This document shows, piece after piece, positions 3,230-25,709 of a stretch of 27,738 bases of DNA (positions within the stretch are counted from its first letter, which is position 1; each line of letters opens with the position of its first letter). The translations under genes and the position numbers were made by a program. Location: positions 1 to 27,738 of the IMG/VR virus record IMGVR_UViG_3300028925_009492; one strand, written 5' to 3'. Origin of the DNA: a virus. Below the pieces are notes generated by a model. It ran no database searches. It was not told where the DNA came from and was given only the letters and a program-made list of their open reading frames with translations.

Positions 3230-3694
3230 TCAATCAACTACGTATTCTATCGCAAGCATGATAGTGCCAGTAAGAGTGGCCCCACCAGTTACAACAGTAA
3301 TCAAGATGCCGTCTTCGTCGGCGTCTACTACGCTGTTTTTGCCGAGAGCAATCGTTGCAGCAACCACTACTGACTGAGCAGTAGTGGAAGCGGCAGCAGC
3401 TTTGTACTCGTCAACGTCTAAGGTGACCGCAGTCCCCGCAGCGTTGTTGTAGCCAGCATGTCCTACGGAAAGCGTAGAAGATGTGTCAAGCGCGTCATAA
3501 GTCAACTCGCCAGACATGATGCGTGCGCCGTTAGGGAGATTGAACATCTCGATAACAGTGCCCGAAGCAATGGCAGCAGCTTCGTATTCGCCATAAGCGA
3601 CACGACGACGTCCACCCATTTCATTGGGTTTGATCTTCGTTTTAGGAGTGTTCTGCTCCCATTTCGTCTTTTGGATGCTATATACAGTTGCCAT
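3230..3694 (-). CDS. Capsid-associated structural protein of unknown function (decoration candidate)
   Basis: This encodes 154 residues from the ATG at 3692-3694, which has GGAGG 8 nt upstream. A longer in-frame extension to 3757 would run back into the capsid gene and is not preferred. The protein has a short basic N-terminal third with a GGRRR run, then an Ala/Thr/Val/Gly-rich beta-like body ending GTIMLAIEYVVD. I do not recognise a named family. Its position 4 nt after the major capsid gene, inside the same terminator-bounded unit, suggests a head decoration or other abundant virion protein. That role is inferred. Confidence 0.8.
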   Translation of the reverse strand: MATVYSIQKTKWEQNTPKTKIKPNEMGGRRRVAYGEYEAAAIASGTVIEMFNLPNGARIMSGELTYDALDTSSTLSVGHAGYNNAAGTAVTLDVDEYKAAAASTTAQSVVVAATIALGKNSVVDADEDGILITVVTGGATLTGTIMLAIEYVVD

Positions 3695-3698
3695 GATA

Positions 3699-4565
3699 TT
3701 AAGCCTCCGAGCAAGTAATAGCGACGACCTTTTTCTCTTCGACTCGGGTAGCACCAAAAGTGCCTTTTAAGTAAACCTGAGTAGAATAAGATTTGTCGTC
3801 ACGTTCGGTCACACGGGCAGTGATATCATTCCAGATGCCCAAGTGAAGACCAGACTTAGCCCAGCATATTGCTGTACGGTCTGTTCCTGAAAGTGCCAAA
3901 CGCTGACTGTCGATGAAGTTAAAGCCCATGAAGGCTTTAATACGTCCATCCACGAGGACAGGCTTATTGGTGTAATCCAAGCTGATTGCTTGAGTCTCAC
4001 CGAGCAGGTCATCATGCTGTTGTGCACCAATGGCGCAATACAGGGGCTCGTTGTCAACGTCAACTTCAGCAGCAATAAGAAGCTGCATTGCTTCCCGCAG
4101 CTTAGCAACAGTGAGACCACCAGAAGTAGTCCCGGCTGTTTGAGCTGATGGGAAAGTTGTCGAAGTTGTTCCGTCTTCGCCTGTCTTAGACGTTCCGGTC
4201 GCGGCTGTGATGATTAGATCATCCATTGAACGGCCAAGTGCCATCGCGCCGTTGACGGCGTAAGGGGACGTTGGATCAGCGATGATGCGGAGCTTGTCAG
4301 TATCATCGATAAGATCCGCCCATTCGTAATCGCTGGGGTAAACCCATCTTTTATCATGGGGGGTTTCAATTAATGGTGTGTCAGAATGGCGCGTAGAGCG
4401 CAGCTGCGCTGTAACGGCACCAATTTGATTGACTGCGGCACCAGATTTTCCTTTGTAGCTGTCTTCGTTGACAGCTCCACGGAATTTGGAACCACGCTGT
4501 TGAAGAAGAGCCTCAACAGTCGATTTATAATCAATCACTGACCAGTCTAGGATTTCATTGGACAT
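3699..4565 (-). CDS. Major capsid protein
   Basis: The 288-residue protein starts MSNEILDWSVIDYKSTVEAL. I chose the ATG at 4563-4565 because GGAGG sits 6 nt before it; the in-frame ATG 12 nt upstream overlaps that ribosome binding site. The order is scaffold, three small genes, this gene, then tail adaptors, which is where podoviruses carry the HK97-fold capsid protein. Features consistent with that family are a long N-terminal helix, a DKRWVYPSDYEWADLIDD segment near residues 71-88, an Ala/Gly/Thr-rich middle and a C-terminal segment with YLKGTFGATRVEEKKVV. A 237-bp leader with a large inverted repeat precedes it. The call rests on synteny and composition rather than a diagnostic motif. Confidence 0.88.
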   Translation of the reverse strand: MSNEILDWSVIDYKSTVEALLQQRGSKFRGAVNEDSYKGKSGAAVNQIGAVTAQLRSTRHSDTPLIETPHDKRWVYPSDYEWADLIDDTDKLRIIADPTSPYAVNGAMALGRSMDDLIITAATGTSKTGEDGTTSTTFPSAQTAGTTSGGLTVAKLREAMQLLIAAEVDVDNEPLYCAIGAQQHDDLLGETQAISLDYTNKPVLVDGRIKAFMGFNFIDSQRLALSGTDRTAICWAKSGLHLGIWNDITARVTERDDKSYSTQVYLKGTFGATRVEEKKVVAITCSEA

Positions 4566-4802
4566 AGCGTCCTCCATAAGAGTTCAGTAAAAATTAACAA
4601 AAAGCTGGAGGCTTGTCCAAGTGTATGGGGCCACTACTCAGACCTTATTGTGGGCCGTTTCCGGTTGTCCACGTAGTCCTTTCGACGTCACATGACGCGC
4701 TTACAGGTGATAGTGTCATATGTGTTGCAAAAAGGCAACAAGTATCGTCAGAAGGTAATCATCTCACCGTCGAGACGATTACCTTATAATTTCTGACTAT
4801 AT
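4566..4802 (-). promoter_or_regulatory. Capsid-gene leader with two inverted repeats
   Basis: There is no gene in this 237-bp gap. Nearest the upstream gene is an imperfect hairpin: 14-nt arms 4752-4765 and 4772-4785 (13 Watson-Crick pairs plus one G-U on the minus strand), loop of 6. Flanking GTCAGA and TCTGAC (4748-4753 and 4791-4796) extend it. A second small hairpin lies at 4723-4740 (TGTTGC, 6-nt loop, GCAACA). No U-run directly follows the large stem, so it is not a clear terminator. It may be an RNA processing site, an operator, or part of a strong capsid-gene leader. Confidence 0.55.
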
Positions 4803-5060
4803 TTAACGCTTAGGTTTCGCGCTACAAGCCGAGGGCGTCCAACCGTGGACGCGCTTAAAATCATCACACATCCGACGAAGATTAGTGAGTTGGCTCTTAC
4901 CGGCTCGGTAAGCATTCTCAATCCTAATAATGGCTATTTGTTGAGAATTGGCTGAGACACTAGTTGTTCGTGCATAGCGACTCTCAACCGCCAGCACTCC
5001 GCCAGCTATGGAGCCAATTAGGGCAATCACTGCCGCGCCAAAAAGTATGTGTTGTTTAAT
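4803..5060 (-). CDS. Small membrane protein, possible ATT start
   Basis: The most conservative start is GTG at 5028-5030 (75 residues), but it has no ribosome binding site and would cut the hydrophobic segment. Ten codons upstream an ATT at 5058-5060 sits 8 nt after AAGGA. That start gives MKQHILFGAAVIALIGSIAGG, a standard single N-terminal membrane helix with a basic start. The rest is soluble and basic with two cysteines, ending SACSAKPKR. The gene lies between the capsid leader and a coiled-coil protein gene. I recognise no family; a virion or membrane role is unknown. The start choice is inference. Confidence 0.6.
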   Translation of the reverse strand: MKQHILFGAAVIALIGSIAGGVLAVESRYARTTSVSANSQQIAIIRIENAYRAGKSQLTNLRRMCDDFKRVHGWTPSACSAKPKR

Positions 5061-5111
5061 CTCGTTAATCCTTTTTATATATTAAAAGATCGCCTGAGAT
5101 CACCTCGGCGG

Positions 5112-5315
5112 CTAAAGGTTCTCGTAAGCCACTTTGATGACTGAGTTGAACGCACCAGCCTTAGAGATGAAAGTGTCGCGTTCTTCGCGGTGGGCTTCTA
5201 TAATCTTAGCGAAGTTAGCCGCCTCTGAGTCTAAGCGTTCTTGAGCTGCCCGGACTCTGTTCTCAGCAGCAACAGCCTTAGCAAGCGTTTCCTCAACGCT
5301 GTTTTTTACTGGCAT
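5112..5315 (-). CDS. Small coiled-coil protein of unknown function
   Basis: This 67-residue, charged, Ala/Glu-rich protein has heptad-like spacing over residues 8-48, suggesting one long helix. It starts at ATG 5313-5315, inside the end of the preceding 50-codon ORF (23-nt overlap). It lies between scaffold and capsid genes, where podoviruses often carry small head-assembly or regulatory genes. No family is recognised. Confidence 0.65.
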   Translation of the reverse strand: MPVKNSVEETLAKAVAAENRVRAAQERLDSEAANFAKIIEAHREERDTFISKAGAFNSVIKVAYENL

Positions 5316-5445
5316 TCTTAGTCTCTTTCTTGTATTCGCCTGTCTCTAAATATTCCTCGTAGTACGTAGCAATGAGTAGCGTCTCTGCCCATTCTTTGCT
5401 GTGTGTAATTGCGAGCCTTAAAGCCTCTAATCTAATCTGCTTCAA
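5293..5445 (-). CDS. 50-residue protein with TTG start, coupled to the scaffold gene
   Basis: A TTG at 5443-5445 overlaps the scaffold stop codon (TTGA junction, the non-ATG equivalent of ATGA coupling), with GGTGAG a few bases upstream. The frame gives 50 residues beginning MKQIRLEALRLAITHSKEWA and ends with a TGA at 5293-5295. It fills an otherwise unexplained 126-bp gap between scaffold and the coiled-coil gene. The composition is an amphipathic charged helix with YYEEYLETGEYKK near the C-terminus, like a small adaptor or assembly factor. Function unknown. Confidence 0.6.
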   Translation of the reverse strand: MKQIRLEALRLAITHSKEWAETLLIATYYEEYLETGEYKKETKNASKKQR

Positions 5446-6278
5446 GACTCACCAACCATAAACCGAGCCAGTTTAGACTTCTTGGCTACAGCAGCGGCGT
5501 GACCCGGATGCTGCTTGTCCAACCAAGCGTCCATAAACTCTTTATTACCGTTCAGTGCAACCATCTCTTCTTGCGCGGTAGCGGGTGTCATTGCGCCTGA
5601 GAGATGCGACTGACCTGTTATAACAATATCATCGCCCAATTGCGAACTTAACCTATCGACAAACTTCATGGCCTCTACTGGACCCATCGTAGCGCGTAAA
5701 CCTTCGAGGTTAGCATCTGACAGACCTAGCTGCGATGCTGCGGCGTTTATGCCGTCGACCTTCTGGTCAAATGCAGCGCCCCATTCTTTACGAAGGTCAG
5801 TCTCTGCGTCAACCGCTGATATCGTCTCTACGTCTTGTGCCGCTTGTCCTCTAGCTTGACCATACTCTGCCCACTGGGCTGTGAGATGGTCTGCTTGTTT
5901 CTGTGTAAGCCCTGCGTCGTGGAAGGTCTTACCCGCCCAGTTAGCAAAATCTCCGTCGTCACCCTCTGGAATTGGGATGCCGTATGAGTCTGCGTCTTCT
6001 GGTCTCCCTAACTTCGTATAAAACTCGTTCCTATCTGAATCTGAAGCGTCATCTCCTAGCAGTGTTACTGTCCGGCCCGCTTTGTCTGCACCCATTAGCT
6101 GTTCTAGGTTTCGGTAACTTCCGAGTACGTTCTCTACAGTGCCGTTTTGTAGACCTTTACTTTCGGCCCATGACCTTGTGTCTGTACTCTCTACTGAATC
6201 TATCCAAGATGACTTTGTGGCTTGTCCTTCCGGGGCCGTTTCCGCTTGTCCTTCCGGGGCGGTTGCTTCTTCGCTCAT
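5442..6278 (-). CDS. Scaffolding (capsid assembly) protein
   Basis: This 278-residue, acidic, Ala/Gln/Glu-rich protein lies between portal and capsid genes. The N-terminus is low-complexity, with an EGQA segment occurring twice near residues 9-20. The middle is helical (QKQADHLTAQWAEYGQA) and the C-terminus is short and basic (AKKSKLARFMVG), as expected for scaffolds that bind the capsid inner surface through a basic helical tail. AAGGA precedes the ATG. The role is to template procapsid assembly and then leave. The assignment is from synteny and composition. Confidence 0.82.
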   Translation of the reverse strand: MSEEATAPEGQAETAPEGQATKSSWIDSVESTDTRSWAESKGLQNGTVENVLGSYRNLEQLMGADKAGRTVTLLGDDASDSDRNEFYTKLGRPEDADSYGIPIPEGDDGDFANWAGKTFHDAGLTQKQADHLTAQWAEYGQARGQAAQDVETISAVDAETDLRKEWGAAFDQKVDGINAAASQLGLSDANLEGLRATMGPVEAMKFVDRLSSQLGDDIVITGQSHLSGAMTPATAQEEMVALNGNKEFMDAWLDKQHPGHAAAVAKKSKLARFMVGES

Positions 6279-6290
6279 ATAAAAAATTCC

Positions 6291-6533
6291 TTAATTATTG
6301 AAGTGGGACCATAGTTCGTCGTTAGTCAAATTAAGATGATTGGCGATCCGTAACCAAACTTCCCGTCGTCCTTGCATTATGCCTTCTATTCTAGCGTCTT
6401 CGTGAAACGTGCTCTCGTTAGCCCTACAGAACTTAGCTAAGTCGTCCAGCACTGCTTCACCATTGATACCCTTAAACGTGTGACGATACTTCTGTCCGCG
6501 CTCTTTTAAAAAGTCTTCTGCCTCAGCTGTCAT
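6291..6533 (-). CDS. Bbp19-like phage protein
   Basis: This 80-residue protein contains YRHTFKGINGEAVLDDLAKF, then a cysteine, TFHEDARIEGIMQGRREVWL and an R-I-x-x-H-L-N-L end. That is the consensus of the small Bbp19-like family found beside portal genes in podoviruses. Its molecular role is not established; it is probably involved in head morphogenesis. The ATG overlaps the portal stop (ATGA), so translation is coupled. Confidence 0.85.
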   Translation of the reverse strand: MTAEAEDFLKERGQKYRHTFKGINGEAVLDDLAKFCRANESTFHEDARIEGIMQGRREVWLRIANHLNLTNDELWSHFNN

Positions 6534-8149
6534 CCATCACCCAATTGTTTCATGATGCCCGCTGCTGCTGGCGCTGCCTCGATGGCTTGCTGTTGCTCTG
6601 AGGCTTGAGAGCGTTGCTTGCGTAGCTCATCGATCTCTTCTTGTCCACGCATCCATGATGCAGGAACAGCGTTGATCTCGGCGAGGGCGGGGTAGATGAC
6701 GTCAGTGTCGAATTGGTCGAGCACCGAGAGGTCTTGCGTTGTATTAGCGTAGGCTATCGCTGCTTCCAGTGTCCGCAACCAACCGGCAGCTTCTTCTGCA
6801 CGCTGAGAGCGTGAGAGCGGGCTGTCGTATTCGATGTCCAACTCACCACCGGCCTCGATCAGAGCGTCTGACATAGGCGGCAACATACCCTGTTGGACCA
6901 ACACGTCAAGCTCACGCTCGATCATTGGACCTAACATCTCAGACTGTTGACGTCCCATCGTGGGAGAGAGTAATGCACCCTTCTCACGCGCGCGTTCTAG
7001 CACTTCAGTCGCAGTCATTGTAGGTGTTTCTATGAGGATCTGGAACAGACTTACGAGGAACGCATCGTTGATTACGCTGCGCTCCATGTCCATCAGCTCT
7101 TGTCCAGCTGCTAGACTACCTGTGGGCAGTGCCTGTACTAGCGCACGACCTTCTGCGCTAACGCCACCGGGGTTCAACGCTCCGGGTTTCAGGCTGAAGG
7201 TGTCTAGGACACCATCGTCATGAGAAAGCAGGACAGGGTTTACGACCCGATGTCCCTGAGTGAGTAGGGTCTTCTTCTGTTCGTTCAAGACTTTGATCGC
7301 AGGTAACGCGATCATGGCAGGTGACCTGCCGTATAACTCGCCGGGGCCTGTGACGTACCGGCTAATAGGATAAGGGAAGGTGTTGAAGCCACCCTCGCTC
7401 ATGAGCTTCTTACCTTCGATCGAGACATAGTAGGACACGAAGGCTTTGCCGCGATAGTCCTTCTTTTTCTTGTCTACTTCGATGCGAGGCTTGACGCAAT
7501 GTATGATCTCGAATTTCTTGTTAGGGTGCTCTTTCAGTGCTGCTTCGACTGCGTCGGGAAGGCTTTCCCAACGACCGACATCAACGCGCTGCTGCATCTG
7601 ACGAGCCGTAAGAGAGAACTTGCGGAACGACGTATCAACAGAACCTTGGTGGCTCATGTCGAAGAAGATCTCCCGAAGATCCACCGAATTATAGCGAAGA
7701 CCACCATCGTCGTGAAAGTCAATGAACATACTCCCCGTACCAAAAGCACCAAGGCCCATATAGACTTCGTGCTGTTGGGATGCGTAGTTGGCCTTAGGCG
7801 CGTAGCGTGCCTTGAATAGGATGTTAGTTGCTTCCTCGAACCACAGCTTAGTGTCCCGGTCCTTGTTGAGGGATGAGTCAGATGCTTTGAGCCTATGCCA
7901 CTTCTGATTACGTGGCGTAAGCATGCTCTCCATCGCAGCAGCGAAGCGCTCTAGTCCGAGGGCTGCCGTCGAGTCGAACATCTTCTCTGTGCGCTTCTCG
8001 CCACGAGTGATGTCAGCAGAGTTCCGATTGAACGAGTTTGCGTAGCGGGGCAACACACGGTCAGCGATCTCTGACCAGTGTGCTTCCCAAGTACCGCGCT
8101 CGCCTTCAAGCTGGCCGAAGCGCTTGATTACATCAGCGGCTATATCCAT
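6530..8149 (-). CDS. Portal protein (head-to-tail connector)
   Basis: The protein has 539 residues, a usual length for the podovirus connector family. It starts MDIAADVIKRFGQLEGERG, then WEAHWSEIADRVLPRY, an arrangement seen in that family. MFDSTAALGLERFAAAMESM (residues about 57-76) and MYGRSPAM-like LYGRSPAMIALPAIKVLNEQ further along match the conserved core. Portals form the dodecameric ring through which DNA is packaged and released. The C-terminal Gln/Ala-rich tail is variable in the family. Three short paralogues lie upstream and the Bbp19-like gene is coupled downstream. Confidence 0.92.
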   Translation of the reverse strand: MDIAADVIKRFGQLEGERGTWEAHWSEIADRVLPRYANSFNRNSADITRGEKRTEKMFDSTAALGLERFAAAMESMLTPRNQKWHRLKASDSSLNKDRDTKLWFEEATNILFKARYAPKANYASQQHEVYMGLGAFGTGSMFIDFHDDGGLRYNSVDLREIFFDMSHQGSVDTSFRKFSLTARQMQQRVDVGRWESLPDAVEAALKEHPNKKFEIIHCVKPRIEVDKKKKDYRGKAFVSYYVSIEGKKLMSEGGFNTFPYPISRYVTGPGELYGRSPAMIALPAIKVLNEQKKTLLTQGHRVVNPVLLSHDDGVLDTFSLKPGALNPGGVSAEGRALVQALPTGSLAAGQELMDMERSVINDAFLVSLFQILIETPTMTATEVLERAREKGALLSPTMGRQQSEMLGPMIERELDVLVQQGMLPPMSDALIEAGGELDIEYDSPLSRSQRAEEAAGWLRTLEAAIAYANTTQDLSVLDQFDTDVIYPALAEINAVPASWMRGQEEIDELRKQRSQASEQQQAIEAAPAAAGIMKQLGDG

Positions 8150-8900: not shown

Positions 8901-10430
8901 TTATGAAAAAACATCGTAGTCCATATCTGTCGCAACCCTACCCCGCCGCCTTCTCATAGTCAAGTTATCTTTACGACTTACCGTCCTGCTGAACGTCGTC
9001 GCCAGCGCGTCTGCCCAATCAGGCGATGCGTAGCCCCGCTTCTTCATCTTGTCCTTAGGCTCCAGCTTGAGCTGCCCCTTGAGGCTGTACTCATACATCG
9101 GCGCACACAGGTCCTCAACCAAGTCCTTCTCGTTCGGCAGCGAGCCTGTCCCGATCCAGTCCCTCATCCGCCCCCACAGCTCCACACGGTGGTTAGCGTA
9201 CATCTCCTTGTCCTGAGCCCCGCCCCCAACCTTAACCTCTATAACCTTATACCCTGTTGCCTTCAACAGATCAGCCACACCGCCCCCAACGCCGTCACCC
9301 TCTATGAACACAGCATCAGGGTTGTAGCGATCTATTGCCCTAGCGCAGTGCTCAGCAAGCTCTACGATGGAGCACTTATCATAACCCTCAAACGCTATTG
9401 ACCTAGCATCTCTGCCCTGTCGGAAGGCCAGCACAGCCTTATCATTCCCGAACCTTGCAGGATCAACGCCCATTAGAAGAGGTGCGCCCGTGTCAGGGTG
9501 TAACTCTCTGTCCATAGCTATCTCTACGTCTCCCCTACCGATGAACTGGTAGTCGCCTTGGCGTGGGAACTGGCCGTATACCTCGACTCTAGCCTGATCG
9601 CTGTCTTCTCCATACTGCCGTATGATGTTGTTGTACAGCGTCTGGTCATTCTCCACGACTGTGCGCGCGTCAATGTTCTGACTGTTCCAAGCAGCACGGT
9701 TGCCGTGGAAGCACTCGAAGAACTCACCGCTAGGGTTACGTGGATTGCTGATGGCGATCCAGAACCTGTGCACTGTCTTGTCTGTGAAGTAGCCTTGCGT
9801 CACTGGCCATATACAAGATGCTATGCCGGATGCCTCGTCGAACAGCACAGCCATGCCGCGTTGGCTATGCACACCAGCGAATGCATCGGGGGACTCCTCG
9901 GACCACAGCCGCGCCTGTATGTACCAGTAGGCCGAGTCAAACTGCGTCGTCTTCTTGAGGCTGTCCACCAGCCAGTCAGCTGGACGCAGGGACATAGCGT
10001 TATGCTCGAACCAACGTGAGTTGATTGACATGGTTGCCCACTTGCGTATCTCAGGGAACGTGGTGGATTTGAGCTGCTGCTCGGTATTCGCGCTGACGAT
10101 GACCGTACTGGCCGGTATGGTACTGAACAGCCAGATGGCCACCCAAGCCAAGAACGCTGATTTACCTATGCCGCGCCCAGATGCGCGTGCCATCTGCATC
10201 AGCTCAGGGTCGATGTCGTTGGCGACCCTACTGCGGTTGGCAACAATATGGTCCCTTATCTCTGTAAGCGCCTGTATCTGCCATTCTCTGGGTTTATCGA
10301 AATTCTCAAGCGGGCCACCCGGTACGCCCCAAGGGAAGGCGAACATCACAAACGCCAACGGATCGTCGGCAAGCTCCAGTATCTTAAGGATAAGTTGTTG
10401 TTCTTGTGCAGCTGGTTGTACTTTCGGCAT
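8901..10430 (-). CDS. terL: Terminase large subunit
   Basis: 509 residues, the usual length for a TerL packaging motor. The ATPase domain shows Walker A GRGIGKS (about residue 84) and Walker B MAVLFDEAS (about residue 193). The C-terminal RNase H-like nuclease shows GVDPARFGNDKAV (first Asp), FIEGDGVGGGVADLL and SPDWADALA. All motif positions look intact, so packaging activity is expected. It uses the portal as docking site and the small subunit for DNA recognition. The ribosome binding site before the ATG is weak (A/T-rich with GAAAG). A 139-bp G/C-rich gap separates it from the gene upstream. Confidence 0.95.
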   Translation of the reverse strand: MPKVQPAAQEQQLILKILELADDPLAFVMFAFPWGVPGGPLENFDKPREWQIQALTEIRDHIVANRSRVANDIDPELMQMARASGRGIGKSAFLAWVAIWLFSTIPASTVIVSANTEQQLKSTTFPEIRKWATMSINSRWFEHNAMSLRPADWLVDSLKKTTQFDSAYWYIQARLWSEESPDAFAGVHSQRGMAVLFDEASGIASCIWPVTQGYFTDKTVHRFWIAISNPRNPSGEFFECFHGNRAAWNSQNIDARTVVENDQTLYNNIIRQYGEDSDQARVEVYGQFPRQGDYQFIGRGDVEIAMDRELHPDTGAPLLMGVDPARFGNDKAVLAFRQGRDARSIAFEGYDKCSIVELAEHCARAIDRYNPDAVFIEGDGVGGGVADLLKATGYKVIEVKVGGGAQDKEMYANHRVELWGRMRDWIGTGSLPNEKDLVEDLCAPMYEYSLKGQLKLEPKDKMKKRGYASPDWADALATTFSRTVSRKDNLTMRRRRGRVATDMDYDVFS

Positions 10431-10569: not shown

Positions 10570-10950
10570 TCAGCCCAATACCTCAAATCCATCATCATCA
10601 TCAGGTTCAAGCGTTTCAGGTGTTAGGGTGTCTGGCTCAGCTACGTGTTCGATGATAGGTCCAAGCGTCTCAGGTGTTAGGGTGTTAGTGGTGATGTCCT
10701 TCAGCCTGTTGCTTGCTTGCTCTAGTGCCAAGCCAAGGTCGACCACATTCACGTTAGCTGTCACGTCGATCGCCGATGGCATTACCTTCGCAACTAGCTG
10801 GATAAAGAGTGGTAGGGTTTTAGGGTCGTCAGCGAGAGACGCGAGCCACCTGCCTCCACCTTTGTGCCTAAATGCCCACTCAACCTCCTCGCGAATAGAC
10901 TTCATATCCTTGCGGTGTTTGAGTGGTGGCGGTGCGCCTCTTCGTGCCAT
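10570..10950 (-). CDS. Terminase small subunit candidate
   Basis: A 126-residue protein beginning with a basic MARRGAPPPLKHRKD segment, then helical REEVEWAFRHKGGGRWLAS and FIQLVAKVMPSAIDV, and ending in an acidic tail. The tail contains a duplicated TLTPETL-(G/E)-P element, encoded by copies of a sequence containing GGTGTTAGGG, and a run of Asp. It is the first gene of the late operon and lies directly upstream of terL, the standard place for the DNA-recognition subunit. The family is not recognised from motif alone, so the role rests on position. Confidence 0.6.
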   Translation of the reverse strand: MARRGAPPPLKHRKDMKSIREEVEWAFRHKGGGRWLASLADDPKTLPLFIQLVAKVMPSAIDVTANVNVVDLGLALEQASNRLKDITTNTLTPETLGPIIEHVAEPDTLTPETLEPDDDDGFEVLG

Positions 10951-11182
10951 GCTGCGTTACCTAAGTTGTTGAGCTGATTTATGATGCATTATCAATCAAG
11001 CCATAACAGTGCGGCAATACCTTATATATAGGCGCTATTTGAGGCACTCGCTGTAAGCCCCCGCCCAAGCCAAAAAGCCAACCTCTTCAATTAATGCATA
11101 ACCATGCCTCAGAACAGAGATACGCGCTGGTGGTGCCTCTGCGAGCGCTACAGACTATCGGTGCCAAATAAGGGCCCTAATG

Positions 11183-11367: not shown

Positions 11368-11396
11368 TTGATAACCGATAATAAATACCCCATATT
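11368..11396 (+). promoter_or_regulatory. Candidate rightward early promoter
   Basis: TTGATA (11368-11373) and CATATT (11391-11396) are separated by 17 bp, giving 5/6 and 4/6 matches to the sigma-70 consensus. Transcription would begin near 11403, just before the structured leader. An overlapping alternative is TTTACA (11356-11361) with GATAAT (11377-11382), at a shorter 15-bp spacing. Confidence 0.4.
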
Positions 11397-11419
11397 ATGG
11401 TCAAGGCCACACCGGCTGC

Positions 11420-11519
11420 CCCGTTAAAAAACGGGAAACCTCAGCCCAGCTGAGTAACCCGCTTCCTGCCTCGCCGAGTAGAGATGGAAGCGCCTCACAA
11501 ACATAGAGGCATCAAGCGG
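11420..11519 (+). ncRNA. Structured early-operon leader RNA upstream of the ribozyme
   Basis: Several stems can be drawn: CCCGTT-AAAA-AACGGG (11420-11435); CTCAGC-CCA-GCTGAG (11440-11454), which can be extended by an outer CGGG/CCCG pair; GCTTCC/GGAAGC enclosing about 19 nt (11461-11501); and GCCTC/GAGGC around a 9-nt loop. The density of short perfect stems in about 100 nt suggests functional RNA. GTAACC at 11454-11459 can also pair with GGTTAC at 11531-11536, which would break stem I of the ribozyme and might regulate it. Family unknown. Confidence 0.5.
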
Positions 11520-11578
11520 ATATAGTCTGAGGTTACAAACCTCACTGATGAGACATAACAATGCCGAAACTAACAACC
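11518..11578 (+). ncRNA. Type III hammerhead ribozyme (self-cleaving)
   Basis: All conserved core parts are present in the right order. The cleavage triplet GUC is at 11525-11527. Stem I (11528-11534 with 11538-11544) has seven Watson-Crick pairs and an ACA loop. CUGAUGA lies at 11545-11551. Stem II (11552-11556 with 11561-11565) begins with the canonical G-C pair, has one A-C mismatch and an AACA loop. GAAA lies at 11566-11569. Stem III forms from UAGU (11523-11526) with ACUA (11569-11572) and may be extended by GG/CC further out. Stem III is open-ended, which makes it type III. Cleavage after C11527 would leave the early mRNA with a 5' hairpin about 65 nt before the first start codon. Hammerheads are known in phage genomes; the structure here is read by hand. 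Confidence 0.82.
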
Positions 11579-11591
11579 AAGGAATAGCCTG

Positions 11592-11681
11592 ATGAAACAC
11601 ATCCCTATATTTGCTGCCTACGCAATCGCCGGAACATCGGCTGTCGGTTACTACTTCATCTTCTCTATGTTAGCGTCATGA
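11592..11681 (+). CDS. 29-residue single-helix membrane peptide, first early gene
   Basis: The ATG at 11592 has AAGGAATAG upstream. The 29-residue frame begins MKHIPIFAAYAIAGTSAVGY and is hydrophobic through to the end, with a basic start, so one membrane helix is likely. Its stop overlaps the next start (ATGA at 11678-11681). It is the first gene after the hammerhead ribozyme. No family is recognised; it is likely real because of the coupling and ribosome binding site. Confidence 0.6.
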   Translation: MKHIPIFAAYAIAGTSAVGYYFIFSMLAS

Positions 11682-11926
11682 TCAAATACACCAAGCGCCC
11701 AAACATTGAGACGCTTCGCAGACGTTGCCGGGATGACAGAGACATCATCAACACCATCCGTCACGAATATACCAACTACAGCAAGGTTCAAGACGCTGTG
11801 TACGCCAGTGAGGACGCTGTGGCGATATTCCGCACGTTTTTCCACAGTGTTGTTGCACTGGACAAGAACCTCGGTTCTGAGGCTGCTGCCCAGTTCGGAA
11901 ACCATATCAAAGGATTAGCCAAATGA
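11678..11926 (+). CDS. Small early protein of unknown function, ends GLAK
   Basis: 82 residues, basic N-terminus (KRPNIETLRRRCRDDRD), otherwise helical. The C-terminal GLAK codons contain AAGGA, which is the ribosome binding site of the next gene, and the stop overlaps its start (ATGA). The same AAGGATTAGCCAAATGAT string ends the next gene as well. No known family. Confidence 0.75.
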   Translation: MIKYTKRPNIETLRRRCRDDRDIINTIRHEYTNYSKVQDAVYASEDAVAIFRTFFHSVVALDKNLGSEAAAQFGNHIKGLAK

Positions 11927-12707: not shown

Positions 12708-13016
12708 ATGATTAATGAAAACAAGCTCGACGAGATTGCAATGGATTACGCGATCGAAATACGGCGTGAAATTAAGGACCATGGTGGTGAAGAAACCGAG
12801 TTAGCGCACGAGTACGCTGACGGTTCTGAGTGGGCCATCTATTACCACAAAGCCCATGAGTTATGCCGCGAGTGTGATGTCACCAGCGGCGAAGACGGCT
12901 TGCGCGATGGAGGTGAGCCCCTCGCGGGATGGAGTTACGACACGATGGCAACGACTATTGCCTATTGGGAATTAAACACGCGCATTCTTTTGGCGCTTTC
13001 CGACATGGAGGATTGA
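12708..13016 (+). CDS. Acidic early protein of unknown function
   Basis: 102 residues, strongly acidic, starting MINENKLDEIAMDYAIEIRR with AGAGGA upstream. It contains YADGSEWAIYYHKAHELC near residue 36-53, a pattern common in hypothetical phage early proteins. The acidity would fit a DNA mimic, but there is no motif to support one. Confidence 0.75.
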   Translation: MINENKLDEIAMDYAIEIRREIKDHGGEETELAHEYADGSEWAIYYHKAHELCRECDVTSGEDGLRDGGEPLAGWSYDTMATTIAYWELNTRILLALSDMED

Positions 13017-13017
13017 T

Positions 13018-13242
13018 ATGGCTACTTGCTTAACGCTATCAGATGGAACGTGGTGCCTAGTAGAGCCCAAGCCCGACAACCCGCGCACGGATCACAGGGT
13101 CTTCCGGCATGGCAAGCACGGGGGTTACGACTGGGCGCACTACTCAGACGTGGATACTAACGGACCTAGAGCCCGTTGGTACGGTTGGGGGTCACCAGAA
13201 CTACCCGAAACAATGTTAGCAAATTCGGAGGCAGCGTCATGA
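13018..13242 (+). CDS. Small early protein of unknown function
   Basis: 74 residues, rich in Trp, His and Gly (GGYDWAHYSDVD; ARWYGWGSP), which suggests a small beta fold. GGAGG from the end of the previous gene forms its ribosome binding site. Its end overlaps the next start (ATGA). Confidence 0.72.
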   Translation: MATCLTLSDGTWCLVEPKPDNPRTDHRVFRHGKHGGYDWAHYSDVDTNGPRARWYGWGSPELPETMLANSEAAS

Positions 13243-25420: not shown

Positions 25421-25446
25421 GGCGCTACGGGCCTGTTTTTTTTTTT
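25420..25446 (+). terminator. Terminator of the early/replication operon
   Basis: AGGC (25420-25423) and GCCT (25431-25434) form a short stem, followed by G and eleven T. It lies between the convergent HNH and Nfu genes; the T-run ends on the Nfu stop codon. The stem is short, so efficiency may be modest. Confidence 0.65.
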
Positions 25447-25709
25447 CAGTAATAAGGGTTAACTACTTCCCCGTCCTCATGTGATACACTTTCAACATCA
25501 TCTGGCAGGTATTCTTTAAGAGTTTGTTCTACCCCTAGTTTAAGAGTGAATGAACTGGCAGCACAACCTGCACATGATCCTGTTAATTTAACATGGACAT
25601 TCTTTTTTTCTTCATCGTAGGATAATAATTGTATGAGTCCACCATGTTGAGCTATGGTAGGAGAAATTACATCAGCTAAGATGTCTTCTATTTTAGCAAA
25701 TGTTGTCAT
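25446..25709 (-). CDS. NifU/Nfu-type Fe-S cluster scaffold protein
   Basis: 87 residues. The whole protein is a NifU C-terminal domain: ISPTIAQHGGLIQLLSYDEE, then VHVKLTGSCAGCAASSFTLK (CxxC at C46 and C49) and LGVEQTLKEYLPDDVESV. Known Nfu proteins bind a [4Fe-4S] cluster between two CxxC motifs in a dimer and deliver it to target enzymes. The usual D-G-G is H-G-G here. The gene is coupled to the lysozyme by ATGA, and is the last gene of the leftward late operon. It is visibly more AT-rich (about 37% G+C in a 120-bp sample) than most of the window, suggesting recent transfer. It may supply clusters to phage or host Fe-S enzymes. Confidence 0.88.
   Translation of the reverse strand: MTTFAKIEDILADVISPTIAQHGGLIQLLSYDEEKKNVHVKLTGSCAGCAASSFTLKLGVEQTLKEYLPDDVESVSHEDGEVVNPYY

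Follow-up and report, generated by a model that had tools for sequence, protein, structure and literature searches.

A candidate type III hammerhead ribozyme in the 5' leader of a phage early operon

Introduction

Can the early message of a phage be cut by an RNA element in its own leader, a short distance before the first start codon, and if so, what would the cut accomplish? Hammerheads have been reported in phages and prophages, including arrays between phage genes (Perreault et al. 2011, PMC3088659), and their role in prokaryotes and phages has been described as an open question (PMC6155905). The window, meaning the whole 27,738-bp stretch analyzed here, is a fragment of an uncultured virus, and a sequence-only reading of it had proposed that the early-operon leader contains a type III hammerhead. 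We assessed the parts of this motif, its significance, its predicted folding, and its genomic setting, together with the hammerheads of related phages.

Genomic context of the motif

The left part of the window is transcribed leftward and encodes a capsid protein (phrog_3437), a head-tail adaptor (phrog_332), and the terminase large subunit. The middle is transcribed rightward, with small early ORFs followed by primase, exonuclease, and DNA polymerase genes; because of these DNA primase, exonuclease, and polymerase genes, we take the operon to be early. The motif lies in the divergent gap. On one side of this gap is a putative small terminase (10570-10950), a name based solely on its position and a weak similarity; on the other is the ORF at 11592, the first to run rightward. 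Coordinates of the features are collected in Table 1. Assignment of a host through terminase relatives was dropped, since the relatives located within bacterial genome contigs were mostly from MAG bins (Uhrbacteria, Alphaproteobacteria, Burkholderiales, and Reyranella). Elsewhere in the window, an 87-aa ORF at 25446-25709 (-) resembles the C-terminal domain of the NifU/NfuA iron-sulfur scaffold (GSCAGC motif) when its translation is read by eye, which is unusual for a phage gene.

Table 1. Features of the window that bear on the candidate ribozyme.
Feature	Position	Strand	Remarks
Terminase large subunit	8901..10430	-	phrog_2, E 3.6e-39; divergent from the early operon; defines the relatives
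Putative early promoter, TTGATA-17-CATATT	11368..11396	+	inside the 19-nt box TTGATAAnnnATnATAAAT; from a consensus scan
Structured 5' leader RNA, four hairpins	11403..11527	+	predicted start; portion that would be cut off
Stem III 5' strand, UAGU	11523..11526	+	4 bp with 11569-11572
Cleavage triplet, GUC	11525..11527	+	predicted cut between C11527 and U11528
Stem I hairpin	11528..11544	+	7 bp (11528-11534 with 11538-11544), loop ACA
Core, CUGAUGA	11545..11551	+	conserved
Stem II, GACAU/AUGCC	11552..11565	+	11552-11556 with 11561-11565; loop AACA
Core, GAAA	11566..11569	+	conserved
Stem III 3' strand, ACUA	11569..11572	+	pairs with 11523-11526
Shine-Dalgarno-like AAGGAA	11579..11584	+	outside the ribozyme
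First early ORF	11592..11681	+	29 aa, one hydrophobic stretch; ATGA overlap with next start (translation)
Second early ORF	11678..11926	+	82 aa, without PHROG match

Structure of the hammerhead motif

A complete type III hammerhead core was found on the plus strand at 11523-11572. The invariant elements of the class (CUGANGA, GAAA, and a cleavable NUH triplet) are present as CUGAUGA, GAAA, and GUC, and three helices join at the core in the type III permutation, namely a stem I of 7 bp, a stem III of 4 bp, and a stem II in which 4 of 5 positions are paired. The G10.1-C11.1 pair of stem II is kept and the mismatch is A11553·C11564. An exact search for CTGANGAG-N12-CGAAAC in the window returned a single occurrence, the hammerhead core itself. 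The motif is in sense orientation to the early operon and ends 19 nt before the early start codon, ATG 11592, with the predicted cut after C11527 falling 64 nt upstream of that codon. All of the bases named in the sequence-only reading were therefore found, in the order that it gave, and its weak points (a stem III of just 4 bp and a single A-C mismatch in stem II) were described correctly. A 19-nt direct repeat, 79% identical, links window positions 10999-11017 and 11551-11569, the latter spanning stem II and GAAA; this may be due to chance.

Significance of the match

Searching the whole window against 4227 Rfam families at E ≤ 1 produced a single match of any family, RF00008 (Hammerhead_3), at 11520-11575 with 31.8 bits and an E value of 0.0032. 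The match was full-length (model 1-54), and its score was below the RF00008 gathering cut-off of 48.5. Seven other hammerhead-bearing phage records likewise scored under the cut-off (29.4-47 bits), so the cut-off does not discriminate for phage hammerheads. The Rfam gathering threshold was therefore rejected as an arbiter, as well-formed phage hammerheads also fall short of it; many phage hammerheads are missed at that score.

To avoid dependence on the Rfam model alone, we derived a phage covariance model from 15 type III hammerheads of other phages, leaving the window out. The source sequences were hammerheads of viral contigs collected by pattern, and only those with all stems were kept. 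This model scored the window motif at 43.2 bits (E 1.1e-10), with the runner-up in the window at 11.1 bits. Over 1.0 Mb of related phage DNA, the window motif was the sole strong match, the next best being part of the type II hammerhead of the relative L068 at 22.2 bits. These scores are partly circular, as the pattern used for collecting relied on core bases that the window also has. A shuffle control, which is independent of this circularity, yielded no window-like type III hammerhead in 60 dinucleotide shuffles of 0.78 Mb (46 Mb), although the descriptor was loose enough to include the window motif. A covariation test on the model alignment was discounted as evidence because the sequences had been selected for pairing. 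Taken together, the empty shuffles, the sole Rfam match, and the gap between 43.2 and 11.1 bits bear out the earlier statement that chance occurrence is very unlikely. The covariance-model check proposed in the same reading returned a match, which was strong with the phage-specific model and below the curated cut-off with Rfam.

Predicted folding

Predicted thermodynamics is the main doubt on the hammerhead reading. In nearest-neighbor folding, a competing hairpin between GUCU (11525-11528) and AGAC (11551-11554) reached -8.1 kcal/mol compared to -5.0 kcal/mol for the hammerhead, and was thus favored by 3.1 kcal/mol; among 61 other phage hammerheads, just 3 fare worse in this respect. The hammerhead fold made up no more than 0.3% of the predicted ensemble in longer contexts, and stem I had a pairing probability of 0.85-1.0 across all folded contexts. 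Because such energies omit non-canonical core pairs and loop contacts, the folding deficit is a caution and not a disproof.

Tertiary contacts, such as the loop I-loop II contact of fast natural hammerheads, were also considered. The loop I-loop II contact available in the window is 3 bp (UUA/UAA) and is not convincing; in the other phage set, such contacts of at least 4 bp occurred in 11 of 61 hammerheads versus 5.0 expected. A pseudoknot between GUUA at the top of stem I and UAAC in loop II was rejected, as the pairing would disrupt stem I and a 4-nt match between such loops readily arises by chance. A switch pairing of GGCAU (11508-11512) with the AUGCC of stem II was seen in a short fold, disappeared when the whole leader was folded, and was also set aside.

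The leader upstream of the predicted cut

The exact TTGATAAnnnATnATAAAT box occurs twice in the window, at 11368-11386 (+) and 10977-10995 (-), with the two copies facing outward at both ends of the divergent gap. These flanking copies suggest paired divergent promoters and a transcription start near 11403. The promoter itself is a weak call, with about 1 such site expected by chance in the consensus scan. The putative leader at 11403-11527 has a predicted folding energy of -44.0 kcal/mol (z -3.89; none of 200 shuffles was as stable), and the adjacent 125-nt stretches are not unusually stable (z -0.33 and 0.37). Among other phages with hammerheads, the stretch upstream of the L100 hammerhead is likewise structured (z -3.24), and those upstream of the L074, L077, L347, and L351 hammerheads are not unusually so (z 0.0 to 1.1). 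No tRNA or known leader RNA was found in 11403-11527, and the leader had no Rfam match. A DNA-level search with the leader found nothing similar in either 50,697 phage records or 80 terminase relatives.

Hammerheads in terminase relatives

The terminase family comprised 143 loci, 88 of which had at least 1.3 kb of upstream sequence. The closest terminase relatives of the window (up to 81% identity) keep the divergent layout and carry no CUGANGA...GAAA core upstream (28 loci). Complete hammerheads were present in six other contigs of the family, of type II in L068, L074, L347, and L358 and of type I in L077 and L351 (two copies). All seven are upstream of the terminase, on the strand opposite to it, and sense to the early genes. 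Strand-positions of this class made up 17.6% of those searched, giving a chance of about 3e-5 (0.1755 to the sixth power) for six independent contigs. These hammerheads end 7-57 nt before an ATG, compared to 19 nt in the window, and in several relatives the gene that follows the hammerhead is the second or third of the early genes rather than the first.

The choice of search model mattered. A descriptor for type III only, which retrieved the window alone, was rejected as misleading since the relatives carry types I and II, and the Rfam type II model missed L068 and L074 and found L069. The element in L069, a member of the same terminase family, is a type II-like hammerhead at 5352-5415 (-) with a GUG triplet and is probably not cleavable, as GUG is normally not a cleavable triplet.

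The CTAACAACCAA that precedes the Shine-Dalgarno-like site of the window is also found in the L068 leader, downstream of the hammerhead. Early proteins of the window, when compared to those of the hammerhead-bearing relatives, had only weak exonuclease and helicase matches, both in L069. No orthology could be detected among the proteins that flank the sites, so their correspondence is one of position rather than of demonstrated orthology. A lack of core conservation in relatives would, by the sequence-only reading's own account, have counted against it. Hammerheads do recur in the corresponding genome region of relatives, but the nearest ones by terminase lack them and elsewhere the topology mostly differs. 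Within a single terminase family, three permutations occupy corresponding early sites, a recurrence that is new as far as the literature consulted shows.

Proposed function and alternative explanations

Sequence, covariance model, genomic position, and relatives all support a type III hammerhead in the early-operon leader, and we consider it probable that the element is a self-cleaving RNA of this class that would cut the early transcript after C11527. The core and stems, the 19-nt spacing to the early start, and the early-strand recurrence in related phages were computed; the start near 11403, nascent folding, cleavage, and separation of leader and mRNA are steps that we infer. In this model, host RNA polymerase would start near 11403, and the nascent early RNA would fold and then cut itself between C11527 and U11528. 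The cut would yield two products: a leader of about 125 nt, strongly folded and ending in a 2',3'-cyclic phosphate, and a 5'-OH early mRNA that would begin with the stem I hairpin, its ribosome-binding site lying about 52 nt further on. The likely benefits would be an mRNA with a uniform, short, and open 5' region, rid of the structured leader, and without the 5' phosphates used by 5'-end-dependent bacterial decay. Cleavage may in this way process or stabilize the message.

In bacteria dependent on RNase E, 5'-end-dependent decay is hindered by a 5'-OH together with a 5' hairpin; in other bacteria, a 5'-OH product can be a substrate of RNase J. Any effect on decay would therefore depend on the host. 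After cleavage by the type I hammerheads of L077 and L351, the mRNA would lack a 5' hairpin; what is common to the family would therefore be cleavage near the ribosome-binding site rather than the hairpin.

The most likely alternative, itself improbable, is a decayed hammerhead that was once functional and is now inactive or very slow, owing to weak stems II and III and the competing hairpin. The mismatch in stem II, the 4-bp stem III, and a hammerhead fold that lies 3.1 kcal/mol above the minimum are what such a copy would show, the related element in L069 has a non-cleavable triplet, and 4 of the 18 consensus hammerheads tested by Perreault et al. were inactive (PMC3088659). However, neither the catalytic core bases nor the G10.1-C11.1 pair has been lost, which is unlikely after long neutral decay. 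Both weak features recur in Pseudomonas phage PaP3, whose candidate has a stem III of 4 bp and imperfect pairing in stem II, and a stem II with two pairs is common (PMC3088659). Accidental resemblance of an intergenic hairpin to a hammerhead is far less probable. The sub-gathering Rfam score, the absence of the element from the closest terminase relatives, and a predicted minimum that is not the hammerhead fold would all fit an accident, but a shuffle rate below about 1 in 46 Mb for a window-tolerant descriptor, the wide margin over the runner-up with the phage model, and the agreement of placement and strand with the relatives argue against it.

An explanation of nearly the same low probability as decay, and marginally below it, keeps the cleavage step of the preferred model and differs in which product matters. 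The selected product would be the released leader RNA (11403-11527), with a regulatory or decoy role, and the effect on the mRNA would be secondary. The exceptional stability of the leader relative to its neighbors and to all 200 shuffles, and the structured stretch before the L100 hammerhead, are in its favor. In contrast, the upstream stretches in L074, L077, L347, and L351 are ordinary, the hammerheads in these four sit within operons just before genes, and the leader matches nothing in Rfam. Cleavage of the early mRNA by an active hammerhead remains our preferred reading. Across the family, window included, the hammerheads are of three permutations and always sense to early genes and near a start codon, with the window case at the head of the early operon; on this basis, cutting near the 5' end of the early mRNA can be argued to be their function. 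A broader proposal, which we offer tentatively and hold to be doubtful as a whole, is that selection within this terminase-defined family keeps a self-cleaving step before the early genes while the ribozyme itself is replaceable (types I, II, and III at corresponding sites), and that in the window the cut may also free a strongly folded RNA, about 125 nt long, that itself serves some function. The window, L068, L074, L077, L347, L351, L358, and PaP3 provide defined loci for testing early-mRNA cutting.

Comparison with known phage hammerheads

Among viral contigs, the pattern search gave 61 distinct type III hammerheads, approximately half of which are intergenic compared to about one sixth of random positions. 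Where an ORF follows on the same strand, most of the hammerheads end no more than 40 nt from its start. Type III hammerheads in L091, L098, and L100 are on the early side of the terminase/early junction, next to terminases of another PHROG. PaP3, a cultured Pseudomonas podovirus, carries a type III-like match that lies 2 nt ahead of its first early gene (orf71); the phage model finds this match and Rfam misses it. It resembles the window case in its short stem III and imperfect stem II and in an early operon divergent from the terminase, and differs from it in having a GUA triplet (about 45462, minus strand), no G-C at 10.1-11.1, and a second candidate 1.3 kb downstream. That candidate, at 44073-44122 (-) in the PaP3 record (L423), follows orf67 and has CCCAA/UUGGG flanks that suggest type I, with an irregular stem III. 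One PaP3 hammerhead was active in vitro, and the main text of that report leaves unspecified which of the two candidates it was (PMC3088659).

Several phages carry hammerheads in multiple copies. On the minus strand of L150, eight type I hammerheads and one of type III occur in 14 kb, many at gene boundaries. In L258, the stretch 3616-6707 (+) holds six Hammerhead_II matches above the gathering score within 2.8 kb, each just before a small ORF, and further similar hammerhead cores besides. In L092, at 12720-13160 (+), a full type III hammerhead is followed by two partial copies (GUC, paired stem I, CUGAUGAGGA, and AUG) that lack stem II and have a Shine-Dalgarno sequence in the former core. 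Published prophage and phage arrays are like the window in having hammerheads directly 5' of phage genes, where they were proposed to cut long phage transcripts (PMC3088659, Fig. 3); unlike them, the window contains a single hammerhead, which heads an operon; the array cases of this analysis are L150, L258, L247, and L251. Theta ribozymes of gut phages are likewise self-cleaving RNAs for phage transcript processing, but have an HDV-like fold and are linked to suppressor tRNAs (PMC10879173).

Compared to RF00008, the window motif shares a full-length match, the type III order, and all core bases, and its shortfall (31.8 bits against 48.5) is accompanied by a short stem III and the stem II mismatch. 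The HHphage hammerhead of haloviruses HF1 and HF2 is similarly placed, with a few nucleotides separating it from the first ORF of an early operon, and the early transcript there has its 5' end mapped within 3 nt of the hammerhead cut (PMC3088659). However, HF1 and HF2 are viruses of an archaeal halophile, and their hammerhead has a variant core with insertions and precedes a helicase gene (PMC3088659), whereas the core of the window motif follows the consensus and the gene downstream of it is a different one. Because similar phage cases, including the hammerhead at the 5' end of the HF1/HF2 early mRNA, have been published (PMC3088659), the window element belongs to an already published kind of phage hammerhead.
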